Below, piece by piece: positions 4,839 through 32,842 of a stretch of DNA of 44,533 nt. The position numbers and the translations under genes were made by a program. Position 1 is the first letter of the stretch. The number at the start of each line of letters is the position of its first letter. The stretch covers positions 1 through 44,533 of the forward strand of contig WRET01000023.1 in assembly GCA_009779195.1 (NCBI GenBank), in the 5' to 3' direction. The notes under the pieces were generated by a model. That model had not been told where the DNA came from and ran no database searches. It was given only the letters and a program-made list of their open reading frames with translations. The stretch is from Micrococcales bacterium. Lineage in GTDB: Bacteria > Actinomycetota > Actinomycetes > Actinomycetales > Cellulomonadaceae.

Positions 4839-5411
4839 GTGCTCGTCTGCAACGTCGCCGCCTACCTGTTACTGGTGGGCTTCTTCGTCATGGAGCGTTT
4901 CGTCCGGTCCGCTGGCACCAAGGACATGGCCCGCACCGACCACGACCGGGGCACCACGACGTTCGTCTCGGTGGCCATGGGCACCGCCTTCGTCGTCGTG
5001 CCGCTCGGCCCCCTGGTGAACTGGCTCGACATCGCGCCAGTGCACGTGGTCGCCCTGGCTGTCACCGGAGTCGTGATGGGCTTGGTCGGACTGTTCGTCC
5101 GCTACCTGGCATTCACCACCCTGGGCCGGTTCTTCACCCGCACACTGCGCCAGGCCGAAGACCACGTCCTGGTGACCGACGGGATTTACCGGCTGGTCCG
5201 CCACCCCGGATATCTGTCAGACATCTTGCTCTTCACCGGAGCAGCACTTGCCACGGGCAACCTCATTGCGATGGTCGTCGTCCCGGCACTGTTCCTCCCC
5301 GCCTACGCCTACCGCATCCACACGGAGGAGGCGATGCTCGCCAAGACCTTCGGTGAGGAGTACGAGGCGTACCGCCGGACGTCCAAACGCCTAGTCCCCT
5401 TCGTCTTCTGA
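4839..5411 (+). CDS. Isoprenylcysteine carboxyl methyltransferase (ICMT/PEMT)-family membrane protein
   Basis: About 190 residues with four to five hydrophobic segments. The family's C-terminal signature is present: GIYRLVRHPGYLSD (RHPxY), then a hydrophobic hairpin, then EEAMLAKTFGEEYEAYRR, the SAM-binding end. Bacterial members are SAM-dependent methyltransferases of the inner membrane, and substrates are mostly unknown. GTG 4839 has AGGAG (4828-4832) 6 nt upstream; GTG 4803 in the same frame would add 12 residues but lacks a ribosome site. A long hairpin sits in its leader. Its 3' end overlaps the reading tail of the converging truncated gene by about 100 bp. Confidence 0.8.
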   Translation: MLVCNVAAYLLLVGFFVMERFVRSAGTKDMARTDHDRGTTTFVSVAMGTAFVVVPLGPLVNWLDIAPVHVVALAVTGVVMGLVGLFVRYLAFTTLGRFFTRTLRQAEDHVLVTDGIYRLVRHPGYLSDILLFTGAALATGNLIAMVVVPALFLPAYAYRIHTEEAMLAKTFGEEYEAYRRTSKRLVPFVF

Positions 5412-6037
5412 CCGGCAATACCTGCCCAGACAGGAAGGGCCCGCATCCCCTTCTGAGCCATGAGAAACTGTCCGATCAGTGCTGCGATTCCATAGTGGCC
5501 GTCGAGGACCGCGTCAAACTGATTGACAAAATTCACACGATATGTGTCCGCCGTTTCGCCCTGCAGCTGTGCCGCATAGGTCTCGATATCTCCGAATAGA
5601 TCCTCGAGCGGACCCTCACCGTTCGCCCCCACAGCAAGAGTGTCGCCGACATTGCAGATCGCATCGATGACAGGAGTGAAGTGCTCTGGGTTTGGAAGTC
5701 CACGGAACTTTTCAAACCATGGTTTCAATTCGGCGTGAATTACGTCAAAATCTCCGAAATACTGGTGGTCAGCCGGGCCGTGGTCCAGGTAGTGACGACC
5801 ACCTCCTTCCCCGTCAGGGCCCGGCCGTTCACAGCGGTCATGGATCTTCCCGAGCTCCAGCCAGAACGAATCCATGTAATATGTGTTGTTGGAATGATCG
5901 ACAGCGAAGCCATTGCTCCGCATGAATGCATCGATCGCCGACTGAACAAGCAGCCCGGTCAATCTATCAAACTCCGTATCATACTTCCGCATGTTTGCTG
6001 ACTGGTCTGGCGTGAGATATTCGTCACTCCCGAGCAT
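5309..6037 (-). CDS. AIDxxM-family long helical protein, 3'-truncated copy
   Basis: The open frame is 242 codons, but only about the first 208 (to roughly 5412) look authentic. The rest is antisense to the methyltransferase-family gene. The first part matches, by eye, the genes at 12965 and 30432: QSAIDAFM near residue 33, a Tyr-rich stretch, a PWFEKF helix, an ETADTYRVNFVNQF helix, and GHYGIAALIGQ resembling HHYALAGLL of the 30432 product. The intact relatives have about 520 residues, so the second half is gone. Base composition is clearly more AT-rich than the flanks. The start overlaps the end of the membrane-protein gene at 6024-6614. Function unknown; the neighbourhood suggests a type VII secretion link. 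Confidence 0.55.
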   Translation of the reverse strand: MLGSDEYLTPDQSANMRKYDTEFDRLTGLLVQSAIDAFMRSNGFAVDHSNNTYYMDSFWLELGKIHDRCERPGPDGEGGGRHYLDHGPADHQYFGDFDVIHAELKPWFEKFRGLPNPEHFTPVIDAICNVGDTLAVGANGEGPLEDLFGDIETYAAQLQGETADTYRVNFVNQFDAVLDGHYGIAALIGQFLMAQKGMRALPVWAGIAGQKTKGTRRLDVRRYASYSSPKVLASIASSVWMR

Positions 6038-6614: not shown

Positions 6615-7555
6615 GGATTCTACTTTCTGTGTGATGAGACGTGCTCGCCCGTCTGCCTGTCAGGACGAGGCTCCCGTGGTATTACCCGTTGTTCGGCGGA
6701 TTCTGGTGCCCCGGTGAACTCAAAACGTCGGGAAGGAGCAGCGTCAGGCGGGGTGCATGGCCGACTGGCGTGCGGCTCACACGCTACAACAGCGGCAGCA
6801 GAAGTCGGCCTGCCTCCCGAGCCGCATCGACTGACATGCCTGCGCTGAGTCCCGCTGGATCGCCGTGCATTGATGTGGCCTGCCCCAAGTTGGTTCATCA
6901 CACCCCCCGCAGGATGAGTCACGCCTTAGGCCCCAAGCCACCATTGGCGCCGTCTGTGGGCGGAGCGCGACGGCGACATGTGCGACACCACCGGGCAAAC
7001 CACCCGATCCTGCTTCGAGCGTAGCAGATCGCTCCACGCTGGCAGCCGCGGAAAACGATCGCGAACGGCATCGACGCCACCCTGGTCACGGAGTACCTCG
7101 CCGCTGTCGAAGACATCATCGCTGACAGCGGCGGAGACGCTGAGACCCGACAACTACCACATCGGCCTACCGCAGGGAGGTCTGTGGTCAGCTCAGCCTT
7201 CGGTGACGCGTTGGACGACGAGCTCGCGGACGCGGGCGGCGTCGGCCTGGCCGTAGCTGACGACGGTTGGGCGGACGAGGCCACCCAGCTGCTGACCTTG
7301 TGACCGGGCCGGAGGACCTCGGGCCGAAGACCGATCCCGGACACGACTTTCCTGGTCAAAGTCGAGCGCAGCTCTCTCGGCACGACCACCTCTCCATCGT
7401 CGCGGCAACACTGGTCGAACTTGAAGTGAGTCGTGGCCGGAGGTCAAGCAGTCATGCCTCTGACCTCGAAGGTTATGTTTGGATAGGAGGTGGTGCTACG
7501 TTGACGACGCCGTGATTCACACTACCTGGCGATGAGCAGGCGACAGGGGAATGTC
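6615..7555. other. Degenerate intergenic region without a convincing gene
   Basis: No frame in this stretch has a ribosome site, recognisable domain or consistent codon pattern. Around 7050-7150 the plus strand reads GIDATLVTEYLAAVEDI, which has coding character and may be a gene scrap. It runs directly into the duplicated gatB 3' end at 7164-7253, after which the frame closes at TGA near 7304. The area looks like accumulated remnants of deletions and insertions. Confidence 0.5.
7164..7253. repeat. 90-bp duplicate of the gatB 3' end (left copy)
   Basis: Matches 8538-8627 over 90 bp with one mismatch. It carries the last codons of gatB (minus strand, [15 protein letters not shown]) and about 29 bp downstream of the gatB stop. 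It is in direct orientation to the authentic copy, 1374 bp away. The two copies bracket the secreted-protein/lipoprotein pair, as attachment-site duplication or a segmental duplication would leave. Confidence 0.9.
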
Positions 7556-8225: not shown

Positions 8226-8566
8226 AAGCCAACTCCGACCGCTTTTTGGCTCAGGTTTCTCGGGAAGTTGGAAACCGTGGTTGACGCGCCGCACCTTGTC
8301 GCTGTTGAACAGCACCGACGTGCAAGAGAGGCGGACTCTGCCCACGTGAGGACGGCAAGTCGACCTTCGGATTGTCGGCACAGCCTCAACCACCACACGC
8401 CCAGGACGGGATTGATCAGGGCCCAACCGGACGGGTGGTGGTGAAGCAGTGCCTTCATGAGGACGTCGCCACGAGGAACAACCAGGTCCAGTCAGGCCGG
8501 GGGCGATTCTCGCCGCGGACCAGGCACTCCTGCGAGTGGCCTACCGCAGGCAGGTCTGTGGTCAGC
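8226..8566. other. Intergenic region between convergent lipoprotein and gatB
   Basis: AGCCAA/TTGGCT arms at about 8228-8250, just after the lipoprotein stop, could form a weak hairpin followed by few Ts. A minus-strand frame from ATG 8458 lacks support. The right gatB-end repeat begins at 8538. Confidence 0.4.
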
Positions 8567-8627
8567 TCAGCCTTCGGTGACGCGTTGGACGACGAGCTCG
8601 CGGACGCGGGCGGCGTCGGCCTGGCCG
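8538..8627. repeat. 90-bp gatB 3' end repeat (authentic copy)
   Basis: Partner of 7164-7253. It contains 61 bp of gatB including the stop codon (8567-8569) and 29 bp beyond. One mismatch to the other copy. Confidence 0.9.
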
Positions 8628-10072
8628 CGGGTGGCTTTCATGACGGCGCCGATGATGGCGCCGACGGGGCCCATGTTTCCGCTGCGGATCTTGGCGGCGA
8701 TATCGGGCTGGGCGGCCAGGGCGGCGTCGATGGCTTCCAGGAGGGGGCCGTCGTCGGAGACGACTGCCAGACCGCGCGCGGCGACGACGTGTTCGGGGTC
8801 GCCTTCTCCGGCCAGGACGCCTTCGAGGACTTGGCGGGCGAGCTTGTCTGTCAGTGTCCCGTCGTCGACCAGCTTTTGCAGGGCGCCGATCTGGGCAGGG
8901 GTGATGGGCAGGGACTCCAGCTCGGTCTCGCGGTCTTTGGCGGTGCGGGCCAGCTCGCCCATCCACCACTTGCGGGCGGCGGCGGGGGTGACACCACCGG
9001 CGACGGTCGCCTCGATGAGCTCGACGGCTCCGGCGTTGACGACGTCGCGCATCTCGGCGTCGGCGTAGCCCCACTCGGTGGCCAGGCGTCGGCGGCGGGC
9101 GGCGGGCAGCTCGGGCAGGCTGGCGCGGATCTGCTCGACCCAGGCGGGGTCGGGGACGATCGGGACCAGGTCCGGTTCAGGGAAGTAGCGGTAGTCCTCG
9201 GCGTCGGACTTGATGCGCCCGGGGCTGGTCGTGCCTTTGTCCTCGTGCCAGTGGCGGGTCTCTTGGACCACGGTGCCACCGGCGTCGAGGACCGCCGCCT
9301 GGCGGGAGATCTCGTGGCGCACCGCACGTTCGACGGCACGGAACGAGTTGACGTTCTTGGTCTCGGTGCGGGTACCCAAGGGGGCGGACGCGTCAGCGCG
9401 CAGAGAGACGTTGACGTCCGCGCGGACGTTTCCGCGTTCCATCCGGGCTTCGGAGACACCCAGCGCACGGAACATGTCGCGCAGGGTCTGCACGTAGGCG
9501 CGGGCGACCTGCGGGGCACGGTCGCCTGCACCGGGGATCGGTTTGGTGACGATCTCGACCAGCGGGACCCCAGCCCGGTTGTAGTCCACGAGGGAATATT
9601 CCGCACCGTGGATCCGACCGCCCTCACCCCCAATGTGCACATTCTTGCCGGCGTCTTCTTCCATATGAGCACGTTCGATCTCGACGCGGAACGTCGTACC
9701 GTCTTCCAACTCGACGTCGACCCAACCTTCCGAGGCGATCGGCTCGTCGTACTGGGAGGTCTGGAAGTTCTTCGGCACGTCCGGGTAGAAATAGTTCTTG
9801 CGGGCGAACCGGCACGAGGGCGCAATAGTGCAGTTCAACGCCAGACCGATACGGATCGCGTACTCCACCGCAGTGCCGTTGACGGCGGGCAGGGCACCGG
9901 GCAGACCCAGGGAGACCGGGGTGATCTGCGTGTTTGGCTCAGCACCGAACGACTGCTCGGCACCGTCGAACATCTTGGTACGTGTCCCCAGCTCGACGTG
10001 CACCTCGATACCCAGCACCGGGTCGTAGCGGCGGACCGCGTCGTCGTAGTCCACCAGTGTCGCCGCGCTCAT
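8567..10072 (-). CDS. gatB: Asp-tRNA(Asn)/Glu-tRNA(Gln) amidotransferase subunit B
   Basis: 501 residues. GatB binds the misacylated tRNA and phosphorylates the side chain before amidation, as part of the cytosolic GatCAB complex. Conserved blocks are [13 protein letters not shown] near residue 17, the [15 protein letters not shown] core, [11 protein letters not shown], the [14 protein letters not shown] motif, and a helical YqeY-like tail ending [12 protein letters not shown]. Size is normal. ATG 10072 overlaps the gatA stop by 4 nt, so the operon is translationally coupled. Its last 61 bp are duplicated upstream at 7164-7253. Confidence 0.97.
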
Positions 10073-11586: not shown

Positions 11587-11882
11587 GCGTCCTCCCCCAG
11601 GATCTGTGGGACCACGAACTTGCCCTCGGACGCTTCCGGCGCCCCCGCGAGCACCTCGTCACGGTCCAGCGGCGCCACGGGCACATCAAGACGGAACACG
11701 TTCGACAACGGCACCGGGTGGCTCGTCGCCGGGACGTCAGGGGTGACGACCTGCGAGACCTTCGCCACCGCCTGCACGATCACCTCCAGCTCTCCGGCGA
11801 GCCGGTCCAGCTCATCAGGCACCAGGTCGATGCGGGCCAACGCCGCTACACGCGCGACCTCGTCGCGCCAGCCAGTGGACAT
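11583..11882 (-). CDS. gatC: Asp-tRNA(Asn)/Glu-tRNA(Gln) amidotransferase subunit C
   Basis: 99 residues. The small subunit wraps around GatA and holds it to GatB. The sequence begins with the usual helix [19 protein letters not shown] and ends with the NVFRLDV...[15 protein letters not shown] segment, both family hallmarks. The start at ATG 11882 gives normal family length; the frame is open further upstream but without homology. No strong Shine-Dalgarno is visible. It is the first gene of the operon, so the promoter should lie in 11883-12160. Confidence 0.93.
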
Positions 11883-12194
11883 GCCCGCAACTCTAGGGCA
11901 TGTCGTCGAGACGGCGTCCGCACGGGTCCGCAGGTGTCGCCTGTCTTGGACAAGAGGCGAAAACATCGAGAATCGCGGCGCTCGGCCGGTTCTGGCCGAC
12001 GACCGGCCATGCCCCAGCCAGGCCCCGTCCGTACCGGGGTGCACGTCCCACGGCCAGCTGCGGGCCCCGGACACACGTCCGGAGACGCCAACGTGGTATC
12101 CCTCGCAGGGGTGATGACGTCGCCGTTGACGCCCGGAGGTTCGCGACACCACTGACCGTTGTGTCACATACTGGACAGCCGATAGGATGTAATG

Positions 12195-12360
12195 CCTGGT
12201 CAGGGCAGTGATCTTACTCAGAGCTGGTCAGACGCCGAAAATTCGAGGGCCGATTGTGTCGTCTGTCCGGGTGAGCATGTGGTTAAAATGGGGCATCGGT
12301 ACGCCGGATTCGTCCGGTTTGTCAGGTTCGCTGATCGGAGTACGCCATGACGGTTGACAC
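12195..12360. repeat. Diverged copy of the tad operon leader
   Basis: Aligns by eye with 16094-16262. Shared blocks include cctggtcag, TTCGAsGGCCGA, GTCykGGGTGA, TGTGGTT, GGTAyGCCGGATT-like text, and the final ATGACGGkTGAC. In the second location this block lies just upstream of the first pilus gene, so it probably contains the operon promoter. I cannot place -35/-10 boxes with confidence. Confidence 0.6.
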
Positions 12361-12389
12361 AGGTCTTCCGCGGGTCTCTGGTCGCGCCA

Positions 12390-12745
12390 GCAGCCCTGGG
12401 GGTGCTGCCGGTGGTGCGCGAGTCGGACAAGTTGATGCCGATGGTGCAGGTCCAGAGCACTTTTTCGGCTCCGGGCCGCACCGAGCTGGTGCGCACGCTC
12501 GAGGTCGTCGACTCAGTCACGTAGCCGACGGCCGCCGAGCGTTTCGCCCAGGTCTGGGCCCGATCTGTGCCGCGGTCCTGCGGCCTAGGGTCCGGGCTGG
12601 TCTCTGCTGGGGTGATAGGTGTCCTGGTGGGGTTCGTGTGGCAGGCGGCGTAGCCGCCCCCCGGGCAGGTGCGTGGCTGGACGCACCTGTCGCCATGGCG
12701 CTGGTCGACGAGTGTGTGATGCTCGTCGACCAGCGTCATGGTCAC
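12390..12745 (+). pseudogene. Decayed 5' fragment of a LysM-BTAD gene copy
   Basis: Translating across frames and stops gives MPMVQVQSTFSAP, TLEVV, RSVPRSCGLG, VLVGFVWQAA, then ALVDE...LVDQ. These match in order the start of the intact gene at 26943 (PSMVQVKSTFAAP, TLKVV, RSAPRLRGLG, VLVGFVWQAA, ALVEE...LVDQ). In-frame stops occur after SVT and after WQAA, and the LysM and later parts are missing. Between here and 12964 no other gene is supported. Confidence 0.75.
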
Positions 12746-12964
12746 CGACTCGTACACGCGTGCGACTGACCGGCTCCAAGAGGCACTGGGGCCCCGCGAG
12801 GGGCTCGCGTCCAGTCGAAGAGCATCAAGCCACCGGCTCGTGATCGTCTCGACGGCCGAGGGGATCAGATTGAAGTCCCGTCACGGCCCCGAGGTCGTGA
12901 CGGTGTCGTCTAGGCCGCAACAGGCGGGAGGTTGGCCTCTCGCCAGACGCAGGGAGAGGGGTTC

Positions 12965-14551
12965 ATGGCAGGGATTGAGTACTTCGAAGAGTCGGTCCGC
13001 ATCCTGAAACAGGCGGCGATCGACGCCTGGATGGTTGACGTCGGAGGGTTTACTCTCATCAGCCACGCCCAAAAGACTAAGGGCGGAGACGGTTACTACA
13101 GAAAATACTGGGGAGAAATCGGGATTCCCTACGACGGAAAGAACCGCTATATTTCCGACGTGTACGAGAACGTCTCCCGAACAGTCGGTGGTGTGGGAGG
13201 AGGGGCCGTCTGGTATGAAGCGGCTCACGTCACCAGCGGTACGAATGAGCTCGATCACCTCAAAGACGGCAGGATTGGCATTGAGTCTTCGCGGTACGTC
13301 GATCAGTTCCAGACGGTGTGCGCGACCATCGAAGACATCGTCGATCCATGGCGCGAAGTGGTCGATCTATCGAAGACCGCGCCCATTGTGCAACAATTCA
13401 CGAAGGTGGCCACCGAACTCGGTCAGGGCAACCTTGGCACCGGAGGAGACTTGCTGGCCGACTGCTCCGACCTCGTCACGACAATGCAAAGCTCACATCT
13501 TCGTGGCGAAACTATCAGCAATTTCAGAAAAGCGGTCATAGCCAAACTGGACCCAAAAATCTACATGGGCGGGACGCCGCTAAAAGCGCTATGCGCAGTG
13601 GGCGTTGCGCTCACATCCCATGCTGCGGCTGAACAGGCGGCTTGGGAACAGGCGTGCACCCAAGCGTCAGAAATTCTCAACAATGCCTTCTTGAAGTTCA
13701 CAGAGGTGGCCAAGAAATCAGATCCCACTGACTGGAAGCAGCTTCTCGAAGTGGCTCATATCGCGGCAGAAGTCGCCCTGGCTGTCATCCCCGGAGGAAA
13801 AGCTTGGACGATTCTCAAGGAAGGTGTGGAGCTCGTCCTCCTCGTCAAAGAGTATGCACCACAACCTATTTCAAACACTCATCCGGCATATAGCTACGAA
13901 AATGTCATGAAAGCCCTACGCCTCAATCTGCAGGAACTCAATACTCAGATCAAGAACACAGAGGAAAATCTCAGAAATCGGGCCTGTGGAAATCTCGATA
14001 CTATTGCGAAGAACAAGGAGCATTTTGCGCTCCGTCCGGAGGCAATCGTATGGGATCAGAAGGACTATGACGACTACAACGCCTACAGCCGCGACTACGA
14101 TCCTTCTAACGATGTCATCCAGATCTATCGATCAGATGTCTTGGACGTCAAGGCTTCTCTAGTAAAGGTGGCTGGAGACTTTAGAGAGATCGCGAGGATA
14201 ATCGAGCCCGTTCATCCTGAAATCTCGCCAGCACTCGCGCGAGACTCGCGCCTCGGACTGGGACCCAACGGTCCGGCTGTGGCATTCATGGAGCTTGCTG
14301 AGTTGCTTCACGACTTGTTGGCCACGTTTGCATGGTGTGTGGAAGAGACTGGTCATGACCTGGTATTGGCCTGTGATGCCATCCTGGCGCAGGACGAAGC
14401 AACCCAGGCGACGCTCCTTGCGCAGGCTGAGTACATGAAGTTAGACGATCAGTTCAACGGCCAAAGCGGCATCGACCTCTGGGACTTCAGCACGCGTGAA
14501 ATCAAAGATGATACTGCTCAACCGCCCGTTATTGAGAGCCTCGTGAAATGA
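12965..14551 (+). CDS. AIDxxM-family long helical protein, intact
   Basis: 528 residues from ATG 12965, preceded by GGGAGAGGGG. No named family recognised. QAAIDAWM lies near residue 18, then a Tyr/Gly-rich segment, a DPWREVVDL helix, an LRGETISNFRKAVIAKLD helix, and an Ala-rich helical stretch. A hydrophobic segment sits around 262-295 (VALAVIPGGKAW...VELVLLV), followed by long helices to the end. It has no signal peptide. The WXG-like helical design, the paralogs at 5309 and 30432, and the type VII core nearby suggest a secreted or secretion-associated protein; that is inference. Clearly AT-richer than the tad genes. It overlaps the next gene (ATGA-type coupling). Confidence 0.75.
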   Translation: MAGIEYFEESVRILKQAAIDAWMVDVGGFTLISHAQKTKGGDGYYRKYWGEIGIPYDGKNRYISDVYENVSRTVGGVGGGAVWYEAAHVTSGTNELDHLKDGRIGIESSRYVDQFQTVCATIEDIVDPWREVVDLSKTAPIVQQFTKVATELGQGNLGTGGDLLADCSDLVTTMQSSHLRGETISNFRKAVIAKLDPKIYMGGTPLKALCAVGVALTSHAAAEQAAWEQACTQASEILNNAFLKFTEVAKKSDPTDWKQLLEVAHIAAEVALAVIPGGKAWTILKEGVELVLLVKEYAPQPISNTHPAYSYENVMKALRLNLQELNTQIKNTEENLRNRACGNLDTIAKNKEHFALRPEAIVWDQKDYDDYNAYSRDYDPSNDVIQIYRSDVLDVKASLVKVAGDFREIARIIEPVHPEISPALARDSRLGLGPNGPAVAFMELAELLHDLLATFAWCVEETGHDLVLACDAILAQDEATQATLLAQAEYMKLDDQFNGQSGIDLWDFSTREIKDDTAQPPVIESLVK

Positions 14552-21243: not shown

Positions 21244-21269
21244 CACCACAACCCCGAGAAAGGACCACC

Positions 21270-22152: not shown

Positions 22153-22154
22153 CC

Positions 22155-23138: not shown

Positions 23139-23194
23139 CACGACGTGTAGACGACAGTGTGCGACACCGCGTCCGCGACCCCTCCCATCGCACC

Positions 23195-23425: not shown

Positions 23426-23832
23426 TGGTCCCGCGGTATCTCGACCGGACCCCGAGCGGCCGACGGTGCGACGAAGGCTCGGCAGCCGTCGAAGCAGCGA
23501 TCCTGTTCCCAGCGGTCCTGGTGCTGGTCATGGCAGTGATCCAGGCCGGGGTGTACTACCACGCCCGTGACGCAGCACGGTGGGCCGCCAACGGAGGTGC
23601 GGTCGCTGGTGCGGTCCACGGCGGAGCCGCCGCAGAGGCCGAGGCCCGCGACCGCATCGAACGCGCTGGAGGTTCGAGCCTGCTCGAAGACGCGGCTGTC
23701 TCCGCGAGCGACACGGGCACGGACGTCACCGTCACCGTCCGCGGAACCGCCAAGACGTTCGTCCCTGGCCTGCCGCCACTGACCGTCACCCAGACGGTCA
23801 CCACCCCCGTCGAACGGTTCACCGCGCCATGA
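23425..23832 (+). CDS. TadE-like pseudopilin
   Basis: 135 residues. A short basic start, then DEGSAAVEAAILFPAVLVLVMAVIQAGVYYHARDAARWAA. This is the TadE N-terminal helix with Glu and Pro in their usual places, followed by a small beta domain ending TVTQTVTTPVERF. TadE-like proteins are minor pilins needed for pilus formation. The start overlaps the pilin stop, and the end overlaps the next start (ATGA). In the first module this gene survives only as its first codons at 21446. Confidence 0.85.
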   Translation: MVPRYLDRTPSGRRCDEGSAAVEAAILFPAVLVLVMAVIQAGVYYHARDAARWAANGGAVAGAVHGGAAAEAEARDRIERAGGSSLLEDAAVSASDTGTDVTVTVRGTAKTFVPGLPPLTVTQTVTTPVERFTAP

Positions 23833-24260
23833 CCACCACAGCGACGCGCACCGACGCTGGGCACCTGAGCCTGGGCGTAGCCATCACCATCCCCGCCGTG
23901 TTCTTCTTCCTCGTCCTGCTCATCATGGCCGGACGCCTAGCCACAGCCAACGGTGCCGTCCAGGCTGCAGCCGCCGAAGCGGCCCGCGCCGCATCGATCT
24001 CCCGCACCGCCCCCACCGCCCAGGCCGCAGCCGAAGCAGCTGCGACCACAACCCTGGGCTCCTCGGACCTGGAGTGCGCCACCAGCAGCGTCGTAGCCGA
24101 CCTGTCCGGCTTCTCCGCCCCCCTGGGCCAAGACGCCCAGGTCACTGTCACCGTGACCTGCACCGTCCCCTTGTCCGAGCTGACCGTCCTCGGCCAAGGC
24201 GACCGCACCATCACCGCCACCGCCACATCCGTCCTCGACCCCTACCGGAGCAGACAATGA
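23829..24260 (+). CDS. Second TadE/TadF-like pseudopilin
   Basis: 143 residues. It has an N-terminal helix (GHLSLGVAITIPAVFFFLVLLIMAGRLATANGAVQAAA), then an Ala-rich helix, then a beta domain with Cys at two places and the end LTVLGQGDRTITATATS. The architecture and position after TadE indicate a second minor pilin. ATG 23829 overlaps the previous stop, and the stop overlaps the lipoprotein start. Only its final codons remain in the first module. Confidence 0.82.
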   Translation: MTTTATRTDAGHLSLGVAITIPAVFFFLVLLIMAGRLATANGAVQAAAAEAARAASISRTAPTAQAAAEAAATTTLGSSDLECATSSVVADLSGFSAPLGQDAQVTVTVTCTVPLSELTVLGQGDRTITATATSVLDPYRSRQ

Positions 24261-24871
24261 AACGCACACTCACCATCACAGCCCTGGTCGTAGCAGCCCT
24301 GGCCCTGACCAGCTGCACCAGCAAGGACCCCACCCCGGACGTCGCCATGGCCACCGAAGCACCCGCCCGTGCACCGACCGTCACCACACCGGCCGATCCG
24401 CTGCAGACCAGTCCAGACGAGGCGCGCCACGCATACCTGAACTACGTGGACGCCTACAACGAGGTCGGCCTGGCTGGGTACAAGGACTGGATGACCATCC
24501 TGTTACCCCTGGCCACCGGGGACGAGATGGGGTTGCTCTACACCAGAGCAGGGAGTCTCGCTGACCAGGGGTACCGCACGGTGGGGTCTGTCATGGTCAA
24601 GTCTGGCCCGACAGTCGTCGAGTACGAAGACACCGACCCGTTGGGCAACTTCCGGGCAGAGATGACCGCGTGCTTGGACACCAGCGGCGTGAAGTGGGTG
24701 GCAGAGGGGCGCGACGCTCTCCGGCCGGAGCCGGACGGCCGGTTCTACTACGCGATCGCCATGCGGCGGATCGTGAACTACGACAACTCAGGCAACGCCC
24801 GTGACGACCCGCACGGCCAGGGGTGGTGGCGGGTCGACGCCGAACACGGAGACCCCGAAAAGCCCTGCTGA
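24257..24871 (+). CDS. Putative lipoprotein of the pilus operon, copy 2
   Basis: 204 residues. Lipoprotein signal with lipobox ALALTSC, a short Ala/Pro/Thr-rich linker, then SPDEARHAYLNYVDAYNEVGLAGYKDW and a beta-rich domain with one conserved Cys and a WWRVD end. It occupies the same place as the 21556 gene, but the sequences have drifted apart strongly except in the signal and fold-like pattern. Anchored outside the membrane; role unknown. Confidence 0.7.
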   Translation: MKRTLTITALVVAALALTSCTSKDPTPDVAMATEAPARAPTVTTPADPLQTSPDEARHAYLNYVDAYNEVGLAGYKDWMTILLPLATGDEMGLLYTRAGSLADQGYRTVGSVMVKSGPTVVEYEDTDPLGNFRAEMTACLDTSGVKWVAEGRDALRPEPDGRFYYAIAMRRIVNYDNSGNARDDPHGQGWWRVDAEHGDPEKPC

Positions 24872-24890
24872 CAACGAAAGGACCACTGCC

Positions 24891-25856
24891 ATGCGTCAGA
24901 AGAAACGATTGCTCGCCGCCCCCGTCATTGTCTTGTGCGTCCTGGTCGGGTACGCGATTGGCCCGCCCGGCGCGACGGCTGTTCCGGGTCCCTCGACCAA
25001 CGTCACCGCCGTAGCCGAAGAGGGCGGGACGAAGCCGGGCCGTTCTGGCGGCGGTGTGTGCCCGTTGTCACCGAGGTACGTGCCTGGGGTTGACTCGGGG
25101 TGCACGCACCCAGCCGGCATGTGGTGGACCGGCGCTTGCTGGGCCGTCGAGGGGGTGCAGCACGTCAACATCGCCGGGTACTACGAGCCGGGAGGCGAGG
25201 GGTGGAACAGCGCTGGCGGGGAGGGCAAAACCTCTGGCGCGCTCCACTTGTGCTATAACCGCGACTGCCCAGCCGCGTCGGCAGCGGCCCTCGATAGGTG
25301 CATCGTCGTGGACACGTTCTGGGCCGACTATGGTGGCGTGTCGCCCCGTATGCTCGCTGAACGCGCCGTGGTATCGATGAACCTGACCGCCCCGGCCATC
25401 GGGATGACCGGTGGGAGCCCCCCGGACGGGATGCAGATCGTGGGTGTCCCGGCGTGGATGTGGGCCGCGGACCCTGGAGAGTCCACGACCGGTCCGATCA
25501 CCCGGTCCGCGGCCGACGGGGGTATCTCGGTGACTGCGACCGGGGTGCTGGACAAGACCGTGTGGTCCATGGGCGACGGGGTGACGATCACTTGCTCGGG
25601 GGCGAACGCCGCAGGCACGCCGTGGACACGGGGCAACGGCGGCAACCCGTCGCCCACGTGCGGGTACACCTACACCCGCACCTCGGCGGGCATGCCGAAC
25701 CAGGCGTTCACCGTCACCGTCACCGCCTACTGGAGGGTCGAGTGGACCGGCGGGGGCCAGTCCGGGGTGATCCTCCGCGAGGTCGCCCGGTCGATCCCCA
25801 AACAGGTCGGCGAGATCCAAGCCATCCTCGTGCCCAACCCAGGCGGCCGGTCATGA
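24891..25856 (+). CDS. Secreted PKD-like protein, copy 2
   Basis: 321 residues from ATG 24891, with GAAAGGA upstream. Signal peptide (PVIVLCVLVGYAIG...ATA), a Cys-rich central region different from that of copy 1, then a C-terminal half closely matching copy 1: GIGMTGGSPPDGMQIVG, DPGESTTGPITRSA, WSMGDGVTITCSG, SPTCGYTYTRTS, GEIQAILVP. The variable front and conserved back suggest a shared scaffold domain with different exposed parts. The last codons overlap a relic of a TadG-like start at 25853. Confidence 0.75.
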   Translation: MRQKKRLLAAPVIVLCVLVGYAIGPPGATAVPGPSTNVTAVAEEGGTKPGRSGGGVCPLSPRYVPGVDSGCTHPAGMWWTGACWAVEGVQHVNIAGYYEPGGEGWNSAGGEGKTSGALHLCYNRDCPAASAAALDRCIVVDTFWADYGGVSPRMLAERAVVSMNLTAPAIGMTGGSPPDGMQIVGVPAWMWAADPGESTTGPITRSAADGGISVTATGVLDKTVWSMGDGVTITCSGANAAGTPWTRGNGGNPSPTCGYTYTRTSAGMPNQAFTVTVTAYWRVEWTGGGQSGVILREVARSIPKQVGEIQAILVPNPGGRS

Positions 25857-26530
25857 CAGGCACACGCGACGACAGCGGTCGGGCCGAGCTGTTCACATTG
25901 GTCCGCACTGTGGCTGTGTCGCAGTTTCCATCAGTAGGTGACTGCTGGTTTGATAGGAGCAGTCCCGGTGGGGTTTCTCGTGGCAGACGGCGGAGTCAGG
26001 GCCGCCCTGGTGGTAGGTGTGGTGTCGACCGCAACTACCGCCACCACGGTGCTGGTCGACGAAGCGGCAACTGTCGTCGACCAGCACCTGGCCGCTCTCA
26101 GGCAGGCGGTTCTTCCAGCCGCATCGCTCCCCCACCCTTGCACAGACCCCGCCCCATCCGCGCAGGGGCCCCCGACAGCTGCAGGGCTGAATCGTCCATG
26201 CTGGTCCAAGGTGCCGTTGGGAGGGGGCTTCCATCAGTAGGTGACTGCTGGTTTGATAGGAGCACTCCTGGTGAGGTTCTCGCGGCAAGCGGCGTCAGGG
26301 CCGCCCCCCGGCGGCAGTTGCGGTGCGCACCGCAACTGCCGCCCCGCGATGGTCGACGATCCGACAACCGCTGTGTTCTTGCTCGTGGTCTTGGCGGTCA
26401 TGCCCGGTGCGTCGTCGGGCCCGACGACGTCGCTACAACCCAGCGCTCCTCCAGCGTGGAGTGCGCGATCCACAGACGGGTCGGGCAGACCCAGGGCACC
26501 CTCGTTCCGAACACCGGGGGACAGCCATGA
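25853..26530 (+). pseudogene. Relics of a third pilus module in a 303-bp tandem repeat
   Basis: ATG 25853 opens with DDSGRAELFTLV, a match to the start of the gene at 26527 (LDDGGGAELFVLV). It then breaks into text resembling TM3 and the linker of the LysM-BTAD protein (VGFLVAD...LVDEA...VVDQHLAAL). The combination recurs 303 bp later. A 36-bp identical block lies at 25926-25961 and again at 26229-26264. The stretch ends with AIHRRVGQTQGTLVPNTGG, a decayed C-terminus of the secreted PKD-like protein, just before ATG 26527. Confidence 0.7.
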
Positions 26531-26946
26531 GACGGCTCGACGATGGTGGTGGGGCTGAGCTGTTCGTGCTGGTGTCGGTGATGGCGATGCTGGTGGCGTT
26601 GGGGTTGGTCGTCGATGGTGGCGGGTACATGCGGGCCAAGGACGATGCTGTGTGGTGCGCGCAGCAGGCGGCTCGTGCCGCAGCCGAACGTATCGACCTG
26701 GAGCAGGTGCAGGAGACGGGTAGCACGCCGGTGCTGGTGGGGTCCGTCGCCGACGCGACAGCCCAGCAGGTGGCCGGTGGGGCAGGAATGGCTGGGGTAT
26801 CGGCGCTCAACGCAGACGGGTCGGTGACGGTCACGTGCAGCACCGAGTACGCCCCGGTGGTGCTGGCGGTCGCTGGTGCCAGGTCGTGGACGGTGACCGA
26901 GCAGGCGACAGCCCGTCCGGCGCGAGGGATCAACCAGGAGGGATGA
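26527..26946 (+). CDS. TadG/TadE-like membrane protein
   Basis: 139 residues from ATG 26527, which overlaps the stop of the preceding relic. GGGAELFVLVSVMAMLVALGLVVDGGGYMRAKDDAVWCAQQAARAAAERI is the TadG-like N-terminal pattern (membrane helix, then VVDGG). A small Thr/Val-rich extracellular part with one Cys follows. Proteins of this kind sit in the cell envelope near the Tad platform. The stop overlaps the next gene (ATGA). Confidence 0.75.
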   Translation: MRRLDDGGGAELFVLVSVMAMLVALGLVVDGGGYMRAKDDAVWCAQQAARAAAERIDLEQVQETGSTPVLVGSVADATAQQVAGGAGMAGVSALNADGSVTVTCSTEYAPVVLAVAGARSWTVTEQATARPARGINQEG

Positions 26947-29900
26947 AGATGAGGCAGGGCGCAGGTGTGGTCAAGGCAGTGGCCTCGGCTGTGGTGCTGG
27001 TGGCGCTGCTGGTCGGCGTTCCGGTGGTGCTGTGGATGGTGGCCGGGTCGCCGGTGCCACACGGGTTGCCGTCGATGGTGCAGGTCAAGAGCACGTTCGC
27101 GGCCCCGGACTACACCGGCACGGTGATGGTCGGGACGCTGAAGGTCGTCGGGTGGGTAGCGTGGGCGACGTTCGCGTGGGCGACGGTCGCTGAGCTGGTC
27201 GCCCAGGTGCGCCACCGTTCGGCGCCGCGGCTGCGCGGTCTGGGGTTCCAGCAGCAGGTCGCTGCTGCGCTGGTCGGAGCTGTCCTGGTGGGGTTCGTGT
27301 GGCAGGCAGCGGCGTCGTCACCGTCCAGGGCGGCCGTGCCAGCCCCGCCCGCACCTGTCGTCGCTGCGGCACTGGTCGAGGAGCCTTCCGGGCTCGTCGA
27401 CCAGCACCTGGCCGCTCCTGAGCAGGCCCCGGCCGGTGCGACGACGACGCACACCGTCGTCAAGGGCGACACCTTGTGGGGCCTGGCCACCCAATATCTG
27501 GGCGACGGGACCAGGTGGCGTGAGATCTACGACATCAACTCCGGTCGGGAGATGCCTGACGGGCACATCCTGTCTGACCCGGGGTGGCTCGACCCCGGGT
27601 GGGAACTGGTGGTCCCAGACGAACGGGCGGACGTGCCAACAGCACCCGAGCACACCCGCACCGTGCAGCGTGGCGACACGTTGTGGCAGATCGCCGAGGA
27701 CGAGCTGGGTGACCCGACCCGGTACCCGGAGATCTACGCGGCATCGACCGGCACCGCGCAGCCCGACGGGCGCCACCTGGTCGACCCGGACCTGATCTAC
27801 CCAGGGTGGCAGGTGACGATCCCCGGCGCCCAGGCCCCAGCCGACGCGTCCGACCCACAGGCCCCTGCCCCTCCGCAGGACACCACAGCCCAGCCCGGGA
27901 CCGACGGCCAAGCCCAACCCGGCGACGTCAGCACTGGCGCCGAACCTGGGACTGTCGTGCCTGGGCAGCCCTCGGCCCAGCAGCAGACCCAATCCCAGCA
28001 GTCAGCAGGGCACGAGCGGGGCATCGACCAGTGGGCGCCGTGGGTCCTGGCTGGTCTGGCCTGCGGCGGTGCGGTCCTGGCCGGGTCGTTGTGGCTGGTC
28101 CTGCAAGCACGACGGCGCGCCCGCCAGCGCCACCGCCTGCCCGGGCAGGCCCTGCCAACCCACGACCCGCTGCTGGCCCCCGTCGCCAAGACCGTCGCCA
28201 CCTTCGGCGCAGGAGCCGCGCACCAGGTGACCTACCTCGACGAGGTCCTGCGCCGTCTGGGCGCGGCCGTGGCCACCACCGGCGAGACCATGCCCGACCT
28301 GGTCGCCGTGGAGCTGACCGGCACCCACGTGGTGCTTCACCTGGGCAGCCCCTGGGAGATGGGCGAACCGTGGGAAGGCGCCGACGAAGGCCACGTGTGG
28401 CGCATCGAGGTGGGCACCGACCTGGACCTGGTGGGCCCGCCCGGCGAGCACCCAGCCCCCTACCCGTTGCTGGTCACCGTCGGGGCAGGCCACGACGGGG
28501 CCCTGTGGTTGCTCAACACCGAAGACGTGGCCATCACGTTGACCGGTGAGCCCGAACGGGCCCGCGACTTCGGCCGGTACCTGGTCGCTGAGATCAGCTG
28601 CTCGCCATGGGCTGCCTGGACCAACGTCGAATGCGTAGGCCTGGGTGCCGAGCTCGTCGGGCTCAACCCTGACCGCATCCGCTACCACCATGTAGGCACT
28701 GCCACCGACCCGGTCGGCGACGTCCTGGCCGAAGCCCTGACCACCGTCGCACGCACCAGCGCCGCCGGGACCGACGTGGTTACAGCCCGGTCCGCCGAGC
28801 TCGGCGTGCAGTCGTGGGCACCACGCGTGGTCCTCGTCGACGCGACCAACGACGACCCTGCCCTGGAGCCGTTGCTGGAGACCATCGCACAGTACGTGGG
28901 CCAGACTGCCACGTCGGTGGTCCTGGCCGGGCCACGCACCGACAGCCCCGGCGGTGTGCACATCGAGGTCACCGCCGAGGGACGGGTCTTGCTGCCCGAG
29001 GTAGGCCTGGACCTGGTCGCTGTGGGCCTGGACATCACCGAGGCTGGCGGGTGCGCGGCCCTGGCAGCCCACACCGACACCGCCACCGGGCCCGTCCCCG
29101 TGCCCTACCACGAGACTGACACCGGATGGCGCGGCTGGTGCGACCTGGCTGGGTCGCTGCGCTCGGAGCACACCGTCCCACGCGACCCCGACTCGTGGTG
29201 CGACATGGACGACCCGCCCAGCGTCCTTCCTGATGACGACGAGCACTACATGCGCACCGCCGCGGTCACTGCTGAAGAACTCGACCTGCTCGGCCCACAA
29301 GTCACCAACGAGGTCCGCCAGGGCGTCGAAGCCACCGACCCCCACCTCGACGACGACCTGACCGCATGGTTGGACCCGTCCTGCCCACGCCCCAAAATCC
29401 GCGTCCTGGGGCCGGTGCAGGTCGCCGCGACCGGAACAGCCCCCGCACGCCGCAGCGCGTTCTTCACCGAACTGCTCACCTACCTGGCCCTGCACCCCGA
29501 CGGCGTCACCGGCGCGCAGATAGCCGCCGCGTTCTCCACCTCCCGCGGCAAGGCCCGTGAGTACCTACGCACCATCCACACATGGGTCGGCACCGACCCT
29601 GCCACCGACGAACCGTACCTGTGGGAACCCGACGACACCCGTGACCCCGTGTGCTACCTGGACGCCCTGGTCGACCTCGACCTCCTACGCCGCCTACGCC
29701 TGCGCGGCCAGGCCCGTGGCGCCGACGGTATCCACGACCTGCTCACCGGCCTCCAGCTCGTCGCCGGACCTCCTTTCGGCGACCCCACCACCTGGCGCCC
29801 CGGCGGTTGGTCATGGCTCGTCGACGAACAACACGACGACACGGCGCTCATCGCCGCTCTCGACACTGCCCACACCGTCATCACCCACACCCTGGCCACC

Positions 29901-30143
29901 GCCGACTACCCCACCGCCCGCATGGCCGCCTCCATGGCCCAGCTCGCCGACCCCAACGCCGAGATCATCAACCTCGACCTCGCCGCCATCGCCTCCGGAG
30001 AGCGTCGCCAGGCCGAAGCCGCCCGCATCGTCGCCGACGACATCGGCAACCGCTCCGACGACGGCCACGCCCCACCCGAGCTCCCCACCCGGACCCAACA
30101 GATCATCACCACCCACCCCACCTGGCTCACCCATGCCTCATGA
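26943..30143 (+). CDS. Membrane protein with two LysM domains and C-terminal BTAD/SARP-like region
   Basis: 1066 residues. Hydrophobic segments lie at about 9-32, 62-82 and 102-120. LysM1 is at about 169-225 (HTVVKGDTLWGLATQYLGD) and LysM2 at about 238-293 (RTVQRGDTLWQIAEDELGD). A Pro/Gln-rich linker leads to TM4 at about 365-387 and an Arg-rich stop-transfer, then a long alpha/beta region. From about 816 there is a winged-helix/BTAD-like part (IRVLGPVQV...FFTELLTYLALHPDGVTGAQIAAAF...). LysM binds peptidoglycan, while BTAD modules belong to SARP transcription factors. The layout suggests a wall sensor with a cytoplasmic output domain, or a scaffold of the pilus. ATG 26943 overlaps the upstream stop. 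Confidence 0.88.
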   Translation: MKMRQGAGVVKAVASAVVLVALLVGVPVVLWMVAGSPVPHGLPSMVQVKSTFAAPDYTGTVMVGTLKVVGWVAWATFAWATVAELVAQVRHRSAPRLRGLGFQQQVAAALVGAVLVGFVWQAAASSPSRAAVPAPPAPVVAAALVEEPSGLVDQHLAAPEQAPAGATTTHTVVKGDTLWGLATQYLGDGTRWREIYDINSGREMPDGHILSDPGWLDPGWELVVPDERADVPTAPEHTRTVQRGDTLWQIAEDELGDPTRYPEIYAASTGTAQPDGRHLVDPDLIYPGWQVTIPGAQAPADASDPQAPAPPQDTTAQPGTDGQAQPGDVSTGAEPGTVVPGQPSAQQQTQSQQSAGHERGIDQWAPWVLAGLACGGAVLAGSLWLVLQARRRARQRHRLPGQALPTHDPLLAPVAKTVATFGAGAAHQVTYLDEVLRRLGAAVATTGETMPDLVAVELTGTHVVLHLGSPWEMGEPWEGADEGHVWRIEVGTDLDLVGPPGEHPAPYPLLVTVGAGHDGALWLLNTEDVAITLTGEPERARDFGRYLVAEISCSPWAAWTNVECVGLGAELVGLNPDRIRYHHVGTATDPVGDVLAEALTTVARTSAAGTDVVTARSAELGVQSWAPRVVLVDATNDDPALEPLLETIAQYVGQTATSVVLAGPRTDSPGGVHIEVTAEGRVLLPEVGLDLVAVGLDITEAGGCAALAAHTDTATGPVPVPYHETDTGWRGWCDLAGSLRSEHTVPRDPDSWCDMDDPPSVLPDDDEHYMRTAAVTAEELDLLGPQVTNEVRQGVEATDPHLDDDLTAWLDPSCPRPKIRVLGPVQVAATGTAPARRSAFFTELLTYLALHPDGVTGAQIAAAFSTSRGKAREYLRTIHTWVGTDPATDEPYLWEPDDTRDPVCYLDALVDLDLLRRLRLRGQARGADGIHDLLTGLQLVAGPPFGDPTTWRPGGWSWLVDEQHDDTALIAALDTAHTVITHTLATADYPTARMAASMAQLADPNAEIINLDLAAIASGERRQAEAARIVADDIGNRSDDGHAPPELPTRTQQIITTHPTWLTHAS

Positions 30144-30431: not shown

Positions 30432-31991
30432 ATGAGCGGACAGAATGATACCGTCACTGAGGTCGATTCTCGGCGCTACGGAACGGACTTCTTTGACATA
30501 TTGGGGAAACTGAAGCGCGCCGCAATCGACGCGTACATGGCCTCAAAAAATTTCGAGCACAATGGCGGGCTATATCGAAGAGAAAGGCTTTCGCCGAATA
30601 AGGACAGGAGGATAATGGTATATGTCACAATGCCTGACGATCTGGGAAGGGGCGGAGGAACCTCGGACGAAAAGACTCTTCCCGGGTGGGGTGAGGACTA
30701 CGTCACAGACTTCACCGATGTGAGGGTCCGCATCAACTGCATTGTCGAGCGGTGGATGAACCTGCCAGAACCAGATACCATAGAGGAAGTTGCCAAAAAT
30801 TTCTCAGAGATAGCGGAACGTCTACGGATGGACGACGGGTCTCCCGCGTCAATTTCGGCGGAAATCAAGACAGTCGAGGACAAGTTTGGGAGTGGGTTTG
30901 ACGGCATTGCGATGGATGCGTTCACGGGCAAGTTCATCAACATGCTAAGAATCGTTCTCCAGCACCACTATGCATTAGCAGGTCTCCTGTCGAACTCAAT
31001 GTGCTCGCAGGTAGGGATATGGACGGCAGCCCGCGCCGGATTCGTTCAGATAGTCGAATCCACCACTGCTTCATTCAACAAGATGGCAAAGTGGTCAGGC
31101 GGCGACCTCCGAGTGACCCTAAGAGTCTTGCAGTACGCGTTGAGTATCGCAGACATAAAATCGCCGAAGGATGCAATTGAAATGGCGATTCGATTCGGCC
31201 TCAATGTGCTGGGGCGCGATGGAGACAGCACAGACAGAACCGACTCTGAGCCGTTAAGCGGAAAACCTGCAACCTTTGAGGAATGCATGATGGCTTTTGA
31301 GCAACACCTCAGCGCGCTGGCACGACAAGTCTGGGGGGCAGAGAACAACGTGCGTACCAGCGTAAATTCAAACATGGGCGAGATCGAAAACGACAAAGAT
31401 CGCTACGAACTGTCCGGATGGTCACTCGATACCGCCAGCCTTGCCGGCAAAACAGCAACCGCAGTCGGACTCGACAATTATACAAAGATCGAAGGCATTG
31501 CCGATCGAGACATGGTCGCCATCCACGACGCTCTGCACAGTCTCGTTGAAGGCCCCGCCGGAGCGGCCGCACAGGACGAACCCATCGCCCAGACCGTGAG
31601 CAGGGACATCAGCATCGGACTCGGACAGTGCGGCCCTGCCGATGCGGTGCGAGAATTTAATGAGGTACTGAAAGACCTGATGCGGAACCTCGTGCGAGAC
31701 CTCGAGCAGGGCAGGGCCGACCTGTGGGCAGCGTACGAGTACCTAAACAACGCCAATGACCAGTCGGCTGCGAAACTCAATGAAATCGCCGCAACCATCG
31801 ATCAGGGAGGAGACCTCGACCCATGGGATTACGAGACTCCGCCCGCCGATCTCAGGGCGACGATGAATTTCCTCTACGCCATGGGCGGCTACTCACCATC
31901 TCGACAAGTGCCGATGGTGTGCACAACGGACGGTCGCGAACTCAAGGTTGACTGGCTCGAACAACGCGACCAGACGAAGGATGAACAATGA
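30432..31991 (+). CDS. AIDxxM-family long helical protein, intact
   Basis: 519 residues with AAGGAGAG upstream of ATG 30432. Third member of the family: KRAAIDAYM near residue 34, then a charged segment, YVTDF and an ERWMNLPEPD helix region, FDGIAMDAFTGKFINML, and HHYALAGLLSNSMCSQVGIW. These match the truncated copy at 5309-6037 in order and spacing. The C-terminal half consists of predicted amphipathic helices without known motifs. No signal peptide. AT-rich compared with the upstream operon. It overlaps the lipoprotein gene by 4 nt. Function unknown; a type VII secreted or membrane-associated role is inferred from context. Confidence 0.75.
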   Translation: MSGQNDTVTEVDSRRYGTDFFDILGKLKRAAIDAYMASKNFEHNGGLYRRERLSPNKDRRIMVYVTMPDDLGRGGGTSDEKTLPGWGEDYVTDFTDVRVRINCIVERWMNLPEPDTIEEVAKNFSEIAERLRMDDGSPASISAEIKTVEDKFGSGFDGIAMDAFTGKFINMLRIVLQHHYALAGLLSNSMCSQVGIWTAARAGFVQIVESTTASFNKMAKWSGGDLRVTLRVLQYALSIADIKSPKDAIEMAIRFGLNVLGRDGDSTDRTDSEPLSGKPATFEECMMAFEQHLSALARQVWGAENNVRTSVNSNMGEIENDKDRYELSGWSLDTASLAGKTATAVGLDNYTKIEGIADRDMVAIHDALHSLVEGPAGAAAQDEPIAQTVSRDISIGLGQCGPADAVREFNEVLKDLMRNLVRDLEQGRADLWAAYEYLNNANDQSAAKLNEIAATIDQGGDLDPWDYETPPADLRATMNFLYAMGGYSPSRQVPMVCTTDGRELKVDWLEQRDQTKDEQ

Positions 31992-32842
31992 TGCAAAGAA
32001 CAGAATGCTGCAAACCGCGGTGCGCGGGCCGAAGGTCGCCGGTGATACTTGTTGTCGCGCTGCTCATTGCTGCTACCGCATGCACGTCTGAAACGGTCGT
32101 TCTTCCCACGTCGAGCCTCACACTGCTCCCGACTGGCCCGACATACCAGATGACTGAGCATGCATTCGTTCTGGAGAATAGCTCCGGTGTTCGCCTGCGG
32201 CTGACACTGTCCATCGGAACGTGGCTGAGGGGTTCGGACACGACAGGACTCGACAACGCCTGGTACCAGGTTTCAGGAGGTGCAGGCATGCCCCTTGGCG
32301 CCGGCACCTATATGAGCGACGCGAACCACGATCCGATGGAACTCGAACCGGACACAGCGGCGTATCTGTTTGGCACAGTATTCTTTGAGAACCTGACCAC
32401 CGATCGAGATGCTGACGATTTTTTGAACGTCCTTCACCCACCCGGCGTGAAGGGACCATCCAGCGATCCTGGAAGTCTCATGATTCCGCTCTATGGCGTC
32501 GGGTTCTCTACTACTGTGTGGGAAGATACAGGATCTTTCGGAGGAACCCTGTTCGTGTGCTACCAAGGTAGTTGTACACATACCTGGGGAGACGTTACCC
32601 ACTTTTCGATTGCTGCTCCGTTCAGCGGAGCGAATAGGTCTGGCCCGCACCCGATAGCTATCGCATTTCCGAACGTGTTCGGACCAGACTTTCCGGACGG
32701 GGCACCCGACTTCTCTAGATATGTGTTCCGGGTGGAGACCTTTGGCCAGGCCGTCGATGGACGGATCGACCCTCATCCCGACGATCGCTTTCCTTCGGTA
32801 GGCCCTGACATTCCAACCCAGATCGGGTGGATCCAACCGTGA
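31988..32842 (+). CDS. Putative lipoprotein, partner of the AIDxxM gene
   Basis: 284 residues. After a basic, Cys-containing start comes a hydrophobic segment, VILVVALLIAATAC, with a good lipobox, so Cys near residue 32 should be lipidated. The body is beta-rich (VRLRLTLSIGTWLRGS, LFVCYQGSCTHTW) with a probable disulfide and several Trp. No family recognised. ATG 31988 lies in the stop of the AIDxxM gene. The pairing of an AIDxxM protein with an envelope protein recurs at 12965/14548 and, in reverse order, at 5309/6024. Confidence 0.7.
   Translation: MMQRTECCKPRCAGRRSPVILVVALLIAATACTSETVVLPTSSLTLLPTGPTYQMTEHAFVLENSSGVRLRLTLSIGTWLRGSDTTGLDNAWYQVSGGAGMPLGAGTYMSDANHDPMELEPDTAAYLFGTVFFENLTTDRDADDFLNVLHPPGVKGPSSDPGSLMIPLYGVGFSTTVWEDTGSFGGTLFVCYQGSCTHTWGDVTHFSIAAPFSGANRSGPHPIAIAFPNVFGPDFPDGAPDFSRYVFRVETFGQAVDGRIDPHPDDRFPSVGPDIPTQIGWIQP

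Follow-up and report, generated by a model that had tools for sequence, protein, structure and literature searches.

AIDxxM proteins, a rare actinobacterial family of candidate single-chain type VII secretion substrates

EspB is a single polypeptide that carries both the WxG and the YxxxD/E motif (PMC9811218). TslA, another described type VII substrate, has its toxic domain at the N-terminal end and is accompanied by an immunity lipoprotein, TilA (PMC10730906). For proteins of the WXG100 type, a C-terminal pattern, HxxxD/ExxhxxxH, has been published (PMC3935865). The DNA considered here is a contig of 44,533 nucleotides from a bacterium of the Micrococcales (WRET01000023.1, assembly GCA_009779195.1); this whole stretch, one high-G+C contig of a 3.33-Mb genome, is referred to as the window. 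The window encodes three proteins with an N-terminal AIDxxM motif (P0001, P0003, and P0005; Table 1), and together with their relatives these look like a previously undescribed actinobacterial family. We consider it moderately probable that AIDxxM proteins are large substrates of ESX-type type VII secretion systems (T7SSs), with both halves of a heterodimer-type substrate fused in one chain. The literature, judged by titles and the beginnings of abstracts and without a search for the motif string itself, yielded nothing on such a family.

A family of fused proteins and its split relatives

A first-pass annotation of the window had grouped the three genes by an N-terminal AIDA[FWY]M motif and had seen an HY element in the first and third. 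Both are borne out by the translations, the latter reading HYGIAAL and HYALAGL. Pairwise BLASTP comparisons (first and third, E 1e-13; second and third, E 2e-11; first and second, E 3e-6) establish that the genes are true homologues rather than a coincidence of motif. The motif is also specific, as 19 of 25 genome stretches matching a 10-residue pattern around it encode a relative. The annotation's further description of three long proteins applies to P0003 and P0005, which are full-length; P0001 is short, and its homology to the other two ends near residue 200. A search of the source genome with an alignment of the three found no additional members. As had been noted, all three genes are richer in AT than core genes (53.9-55.7% G+C, versus 69.0% for gatBAC and 69.2% for the gene of the T7SS ATPase EccC).

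The AIDxxM family is rare and scattered. A scan of GTDB contigs recovered 19 loci with relatives, distributed among Gulosibacter, Leucobacter, Microbacterium, Schumannella, Nocardioides, Peptidiphaga, Buchananella, a Propionibacteriaceae metagenome-assembled genome (MAG), a Microbacteriaceae isolate, and the MAG WQWY01. Whole-genome searches, with the source genome counted each time, found family matches in 4 of 98 near relatives (one of them, G049, at E 0.004 only). Across the order 5 of 396 genomes matched, and across the class 11 of 394, three of these 11 being weak and discounted. The matches in G536, G585, and G725 (large genomes of one genus; E 2e-5 to 5e-5) were excluded as members because, by eye, the proteins are of WXG100 type, end in a transglycosylase-like part, and are encoded behind EccC. 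Plasmid records searched by tblastn with one Nocardioides member as the query gave zero matches.

In four genomes (G496, G599, and G640, which belong to one genus, and G165), a class-wide search and a re-scan of called genes showed that the match to the family profile is divided between two adjacent genes (loci L049, L054, L055, and L057). The small protein of each split pair (114-124 aa) matches profile positions ~345-447 (E 2.4e-17, 2.9e-11, 1.8e-9, and 9.5e-8), and the large protein (314-340 aa) covers the profile's front and middle parts. The small gene comes first in the split pairs, whereas its fused counterpart is the C-terminal third of the chain, so a frameshift, a lost stop, or a sequencing error cannot yield the fused form. 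Judged from these alignments, the family apparently arose by the fusion of two proteins that distant relatives encode as separate neighbors. Three of the four small proteins have YxxxD (YAASD, YAATD, and YAKTD), that of L055 having ILAQD. Likewise, W-x-G-x5-F lies at the family's conserved G column in three of the four large proteins, the exception again being L055, which lacks a clean alignment there. The C-terminal unit of the fused family carries a conserved RDxxIGLGxxGP element, and the small protein of L054 retains it.

Fused members have what looks like a degenerate form of the WxG motif, [LFMW]-x-G-x5-[FY]. Of the 31 full-length fused sequences, 27 retain the G and 26 an aromatic residue at +6; W is found in only three, one from Buchananella (L027, WRG) and two others (L063 and L067, both WHG). 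When WXG100-type sequences are aligned to the family, the G of their WxG falls on the family G column in 14 of 25 cases, versus 31 of 500 shuffles; the shuffles kept the tripeptide and 438 of the 500 aligned at all, and the 25 sequences include many close kin, four others without WxG having been set aside. The published C-terminal pattern, slid along 425 profile positions, is common at two positions only: column 294, with the full pattern in 24/31 members and an acidic residue in 31/31, and column 425, with the pattern in 19/31, an acidic residue in 29/31, and a hydrophobic residue at -4 in 28/31. The next best position reaches 4/31.

Family members are ~440-560 aa long. The AlphaFold2 model of P0005 (predicted local distance difference test score 76.9; predicted template modeling score 0.72) suggests that the N-terminal part is an alpha-beta(3)-alpha domain carrying both AIDxxM and a GxGGG motif, and this domain is conserved across the family. 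A 19-residue stretch with a mean hydropathy of at least 1.7 is present in 11 of 31 members within profile columns 215-272, and in 1 of 31 elsewhere. It is glycine-rich and lies between long helices (e.g., in L063, L032, and L020), and it may be a buried hairpin or a membrane-entering element; in P0005 the stretch is weak (0.71). Pfam and NCBIfam searches with the window proteins and 23 aligned members gave scattered, weak, single-member matches and no T7SS family over cut-off. At this level the initial statement that no known domain is visible stands, and the profile comparisons go beyond it in revealing the degenerate WxG-type motif and the C-terminal patterns of T7SS type. No clear match to a characterized family of unrelated function was found. 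A profile search of PDB sequences (hmmsearch) gave as its best match an ice-binding protein at E 0.01, with no pattern among the matches, and VIA-align comparisons of the whole model and of its N-terminal part gave nothing informative; no enzyme fold was recognized.

Association with type VII secretion and envelope genes

A T7SS link, originally proposed from proximity within the window, is now supported by several independent observations, among them the WxG and YxxxD motifs of the split proteins (three of four pairs each) and the conserved T7SS-type patterns of the fused chains. EccC (TIGR03924 over the curated cut-off) is present in 18/18 carrier genomes (17 with fused or short members, plus G165 with the split form), versus 45/198 genomes of the order, a comparison uncorrected for descent. 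In locus L013 of WQWY01, the family gene is flanked immediately by EccC on one side and a mycosin-like protease on the other, next to gatCAB; the window contig likewise holds gatCAB, three family copies, and EccC together. The mycosin-like protease also adjoins the family gene in L012 and L016, its label being based on a Peptidase_S8 match in L016 and on phmmer links that lead from L016 to L013 and on to L012. The protease gene of L013 (9691-11023) appears as two open frames. Members in Buchananella (L029) are 5-8 kb from EccC and that in L045 (genome G323) is ~6 kb away; in both loci the members adjoin a gene that is ppdK-like by eye.

Envelope neighbors were judged by eye and by hydropathy for 27 family genes. 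A same-strand envelope neighbor is found in 16/27 (P0001, P0003, P0005, L010, L011, L012, L013, L016, L017, L019, L021, the first copy of L029, L033, L045, L047, and L048), a divergent one in 3/27 (L024, L031, and L032), and none in 8/27 (L020, L022, L023, L026, L027, L028, the second copy of L029, and L030), five of these eight being in Nocardioides. Outside the 27 are L052, L053, L056, L062, L063, and L067 (with ~1.5 kb flanks), the L046 fragment, and the four split pairs. The most frequent partner type, a small two-cysteine protein with two transmembrane (TM) segments, is encoded beside the family gene in seven loci; both cysteines are present in all seven aligned sequences. A profile of this partner matched no other open frame in the fetched loci at E 0.1. 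P0002, its representative in the window, is unnamed by Pfam or NCBIfam, and four other two-TM partners have no Pfam name over cut-off.

Other partner types include the mycosin-like protease (L012, L013, and L016), the lipoprotein-like P0006, for which a search of 23 other loci gave no relative, and the P0004 type, shared by the window and WQWY01, where the homologue (L011 3040-4503; E 2.1e-37) also follows an AIDxxM gene. An “NTF2-like” type comprises partners in L033, L032, L045 (three copies), and L047. The label draws on the L032 protein, which matches an NTF2-like family below threshold (E 0.062) and is related to that of L033 (E 1.2e-8); L045 and L047 were added by eye. The three L045 copies are tandem TM-protein genes (11595-14825) between EccC and the family gene. 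In L024 (Microbacterium mitrae, 9302-9802) and L031 (Schumannella soli, 9302-9799), the family gene is followed by a 165-aa soluble protein, similar in the two loci by eye and without a Pfam match.

A gene tree of 31 members shows no clustering of the two-TM label (180/500 shuffles scored as low), weak clustering of all labels combined (17/200), and clear clustering of the no-partner label (3/500); the tree is deep and weakly resolved, and its “none” label also included P0005, the only gene with a P0006-type partner, and six genes of unjudged context. The initial view that each family protein is paired with an envelope protein thus describes the window, where one partner is broken, and does not extend across the family. 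Its corollary, that each protein is an effector with its own cognate partner in the membrane, is supported in part: the same-strand neighbors in 16/27 cases agree with it, and the 8/27 homologues found without an envelope neighbor count against it, as does the lack of agreement between the two-TM label and the tree.

The window and its damaged first copy

Genes in the window were called with a home-made, unvalidated codon score, an earlier gene caller having missed AT-rich genes. By their coordinates, P0003 and P0004 overlap by 4 bp, P0005 and P0006 by 4 bp, and P0001 and P0002 by 14 bp. The second and third family genes are separated by a Flp/Tad pilus locus (16470-30143) with T2SSE, two T2SSF, TadE, Tad, and a LysM protein. 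In P0008, the usual GxSxG reads GTGQGG, and by eye the protein is a possible T7SS effector with a changed nucleophile. More of the source organism's T7SS seems to lie on another contig of the genome (L044 126-4262), where EccD-like and EccB-like genes were recognized by eye beside a mycosin-like protease (TIGR03921, 186 bits, under cut-off).

Table 1. Features of the window, with coordinates on its forward strand
Feature	Coordinates	Strand	Description	Basis
P0001	5309..6037	-	N-terminal fragment of AIDxxM-family gene, motif AIDAFM	translation, homology
P0002	6024..6386	-	remnant of two-TM, two-cysteine partner protein	upstream frame, family alignment
P0003	12965..14551	+	full-length AIDxxM-family protein, 528 aa, AIDAWM	BLASTP, gene call, profile match
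P0004	14548..15894	+	N-terminal TM segment; overlaps P0003	
P0005	30432..31991	+	full-length AIDxxM-family protein, 519 aa, AIDAYM	translation, AlphaFold2 model
AIDxxM motif of P0005	30522..30539	+	residues 31-36, A-I-D-A-Y-M	translation
Degenerate WxG-type motif of P0005	30897..30923	+	residues 156-164, F-D-G-x5-F	
P0006	31988..32842	+	lipoprotein-like; overlaps P0005	
Neighbor of P0006	32937..33761	+	weak sub-threshold EspA_EspE match, E 0.023	
P0008	33796..35142	+	helical N-terminus, linker, hydrolase-like C-terminus (by eye)	no family match
P0007	36095..37180	-	WXG100-like	sub-threshold: Pfam E 0.0015, NCBIfam E 1.4e-4
EccC	37361..41314	-	T7SS ATPase	FtsK_SpoIIIE; TIGR03924 782 bits, over cut-off
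WXG100 (Esx) protein	43823..44104	-	WXG100 (Esx)	over Pfam cut-off
WXG100 (Esx) protein	44144..44455	-	WXG100 (Esx)	over Pfam cut-off

Beyond its homologous part, P0001 continues into a tail antisense to an open frame (4803-5411) that is methyltransferase-like by eye. In the neighboring P0002 the first TM segment is missing: the frame ahead of the listed start does encode a TM-like segment, but an in-frame stop breaks it. A short relative of 194 aa with a similar N-terminal extension occurs in L012 (15054-15638) of WQWY01 (G047, the same genus as the source by its kinship label), where it is directly followed by the mycosin-like protease. The short form may therefore be either an old truncation or a genuine short type. 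A 90-bp stretch spanning the gatB 3' end has a nearly identical second copy in the poorly coding region at 6.4-7.6 kb (the pair lies at 7164-7253 and 8538-8627), which points to rearrangement close to the damaged P0001/P0002 genes. Just ahead of the methyltransferase-like frame, at 4674-4753, lies a perfect inverted repeat with two 37-nt arms and a 6-nt spacer.

Proposed substrate architecture, alternatives, and known systems

The homology, the split relatives, the motif positions, the co-occurrence with EccC, and the gene neighborhoods are established by computation; from them we infer export, recognition by EccC, the site of action, and the role of the partner. In the proposed architecture, the alpha-beta(3)-alpha domain that bears AIDxxM and GxGGG would be followed by a WXG100-like helical unit with the degenerate WxG, in many members by the hydrophobic glycine-rich stretch, and then by the C-terminal unit homologous to the split small protein. 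Such a chain would form a helical bundle by itself, would offer EccC a two-part export signal in the manner of EspB, and would leave the cell without a separate partner. Outside, the N-terminal domain might act at the envelope, perhaps aided by the hydrophobic stretch, and the membrane protein or lipoprotein encoded next to it (16 to 19 of 27 loci) could anchor, receive, or neutralize the exported protein. A more specific joint claim is put forward tentatively: AIDxxM proteins may be a new class of type VII substrate in which the small YxxxD partner was permuted and fused C-terminally to the WxG protein, with a new N-terminal domain added. Such a class would be self-sufficient, possibly membrane-inserting, and served by interchangeable envelope partners (the two-TM cysteine protein, the P0004 type, other lipoproteins, and the mycosin-like protease).

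Several results weigh against substrates of this kind. The WXG100 models PF06013 and TIGR03930 are absent from those matched by the 23 members at E 0.1, and a Foldseek search of the PDB with the whole P0005 model gave no matches at E <=0.001, with no EspB, PE/PPE, or Esx chain among the 50 matches listed. EspB and PE/PPE are also missing from the listed matches of the PDB hmmsearch and VIA-align comparisons, which does not amount to their exclusion. Comparison of the family with WXG100 by hhalign gave P 0.025 and a probability of 2%, and the WXG100 profile scores at most 14 bits against members. Thirty WXG100 sequences (including one wrong-frame row and one duplicate) average 3.6 bits against the family, versus 3.2 for rotated controls, and are thus not above them; scores of at least 5 bits are reached by 11/30 sequences and 123/599 controls, and the sole sequence above the rotated controls is the window's own Esx protein at 44144-44455. 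Scores under the cut-off and profile similarity this weak do not allow assignment to the WXG100 superfamily, and because total scores are no better than controls, the case rests on column position and the split relatives. Few fused members have the strict Y of YxxxD; in the window proteins the motif reads LNNAN and ILAQD. Amphipathic helices that are no export signals can also show HxxxD/ExxhxxxH, so the pattern is support and not proof. Finally, the EccC comparison includes some carriers outside the order and three inside the background, and many copies are far from EccC (e.g., in Schumannella and Peptidiphaga).

Among the alternatives, a T7SS effector with immunity is the most probable, though still unlikely. 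Here the N-terminal domain or the hydrophobic stretch would be harmful, the helices would be the export module, and the envelope neighbor would confer immunity. An extra front domain with T7-type helices behind it, and lipoprotein or small TM genes with a 4-bp overlap, resemble TslA/TilA as described (PMC10730906); the two-TM, two-cysteine partner of seven loci fits as well, and the hydrophobic stretch in 11/31 members keeps a membrane-active effector conceivable. However, polymorphic toxin domains vary, whereas this N-terminal domain is conserved family-wide, and a constant domain with a varying partner speaks against a plain polymorphic toxin. Eight of 27 genes are without an envelope neighbor, homologous proteins are accompanied by several unrelated types of partner, the gene tree shows no clustering of the two-TM label, no enzyme fold is recognized, and the stretch is weak in P0005. 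An LXG polymorphic toxin was rejected, as the C-terminal unit also aligns across members and no variable C-terminal domain was seen.

One constant protein with varying partners, an alpha-beta domain at the N-terminus, and a position between EccC and the protease in one locus (L013) would also suit a cytosolic or membrane-associated accessory of the secretion machine that is not exported, such as a chaperone or adaptor for a lipoprotein or other cargo. This is improbable: C-terminal homology to small proteins with YxxxD in 3/4 and two conserved HxxxD/ExxhxxxH patterns point to a substrate, and occurrence in only 5/396 genomes of the order is unlike a machine part. A ClyA/MakA-like alpha-helical pore former unrelated to WXG100-type substrates is very improbable. 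Least credible is the absence of any functional T7SS link, the genes being mobile hitch-hikers that chance to occur in T7SS-bearing genomes. Their AT-richness and scatter, the degraded copy in the window, and transposase-like genes (by eye) that adjoin in L010 (10609-11720) would agree with mobility, but EccC is over cut-off in all carriers, the split relatives have T7SS motifs, EccC and gatCAB are placed alike in the window and L013, and EccC and the ppdK-like gene recur together in L029 and L045.

If the AIDxxM proteins are exported, the existence in nature of the same T7SS substrate in split and in fused form would make the two-part export signal directly testable, and the question of whether fusion abolishes the need for a partner would become addressable. 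EspB-like logic would then extend to other actinobacteria, and a conserved, nameless N-terminal domain and a family of two-cysteine membrane partners would be added to the subjects for study.

Compared with known systems, AIDxxM chains are nearest to EspB in apparently holding a WxG-type and a YxxxD/E-type motif in one largely helical chain, in genomes with an ESX-type EccC. They differ from EspB in their extra N-terminal alpha-beta domain, their degenerate WxG, a C-terminal unit with RDxxIGLGxxGP, and an envelope gene that is often adjacent. With WXG100/Esx proteins they share the x-G-x5-F motif and HxxxD/ExxhxxxH at fixed places, yet they are ~440-560 aa rather than 100, consist of fused units, and have an additional domain. 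The split pairs are homologous to AIDxxM proteins over both parts but consist of two genes in swapped order, with a canonical WxG in three of four large proteins and YxxxD in three of four small ones. The reverse-domain T7SSb lipase toxin system TslA/TilA/TlaA1/TlaA2 is similar in its extra front domain, its C-terminal T7-type helices, and, for some loci, an adjoining lipoprotein gene; in contrast, AIDxxM proteins have no recognized lipase or other enzyme, their helper is apparently fused rather than separate, and the EccC is of the ESX type. By analogy, the family appears to combine features of EspB and TslA (i.e., a fused two-part unit, an extra front domain, and often an adjacent envelope gene). 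An AIDxxM protein is thus most likely an EspB-like substrate made as one chain and fronted by an additional domain, and it is predicted to be exported.

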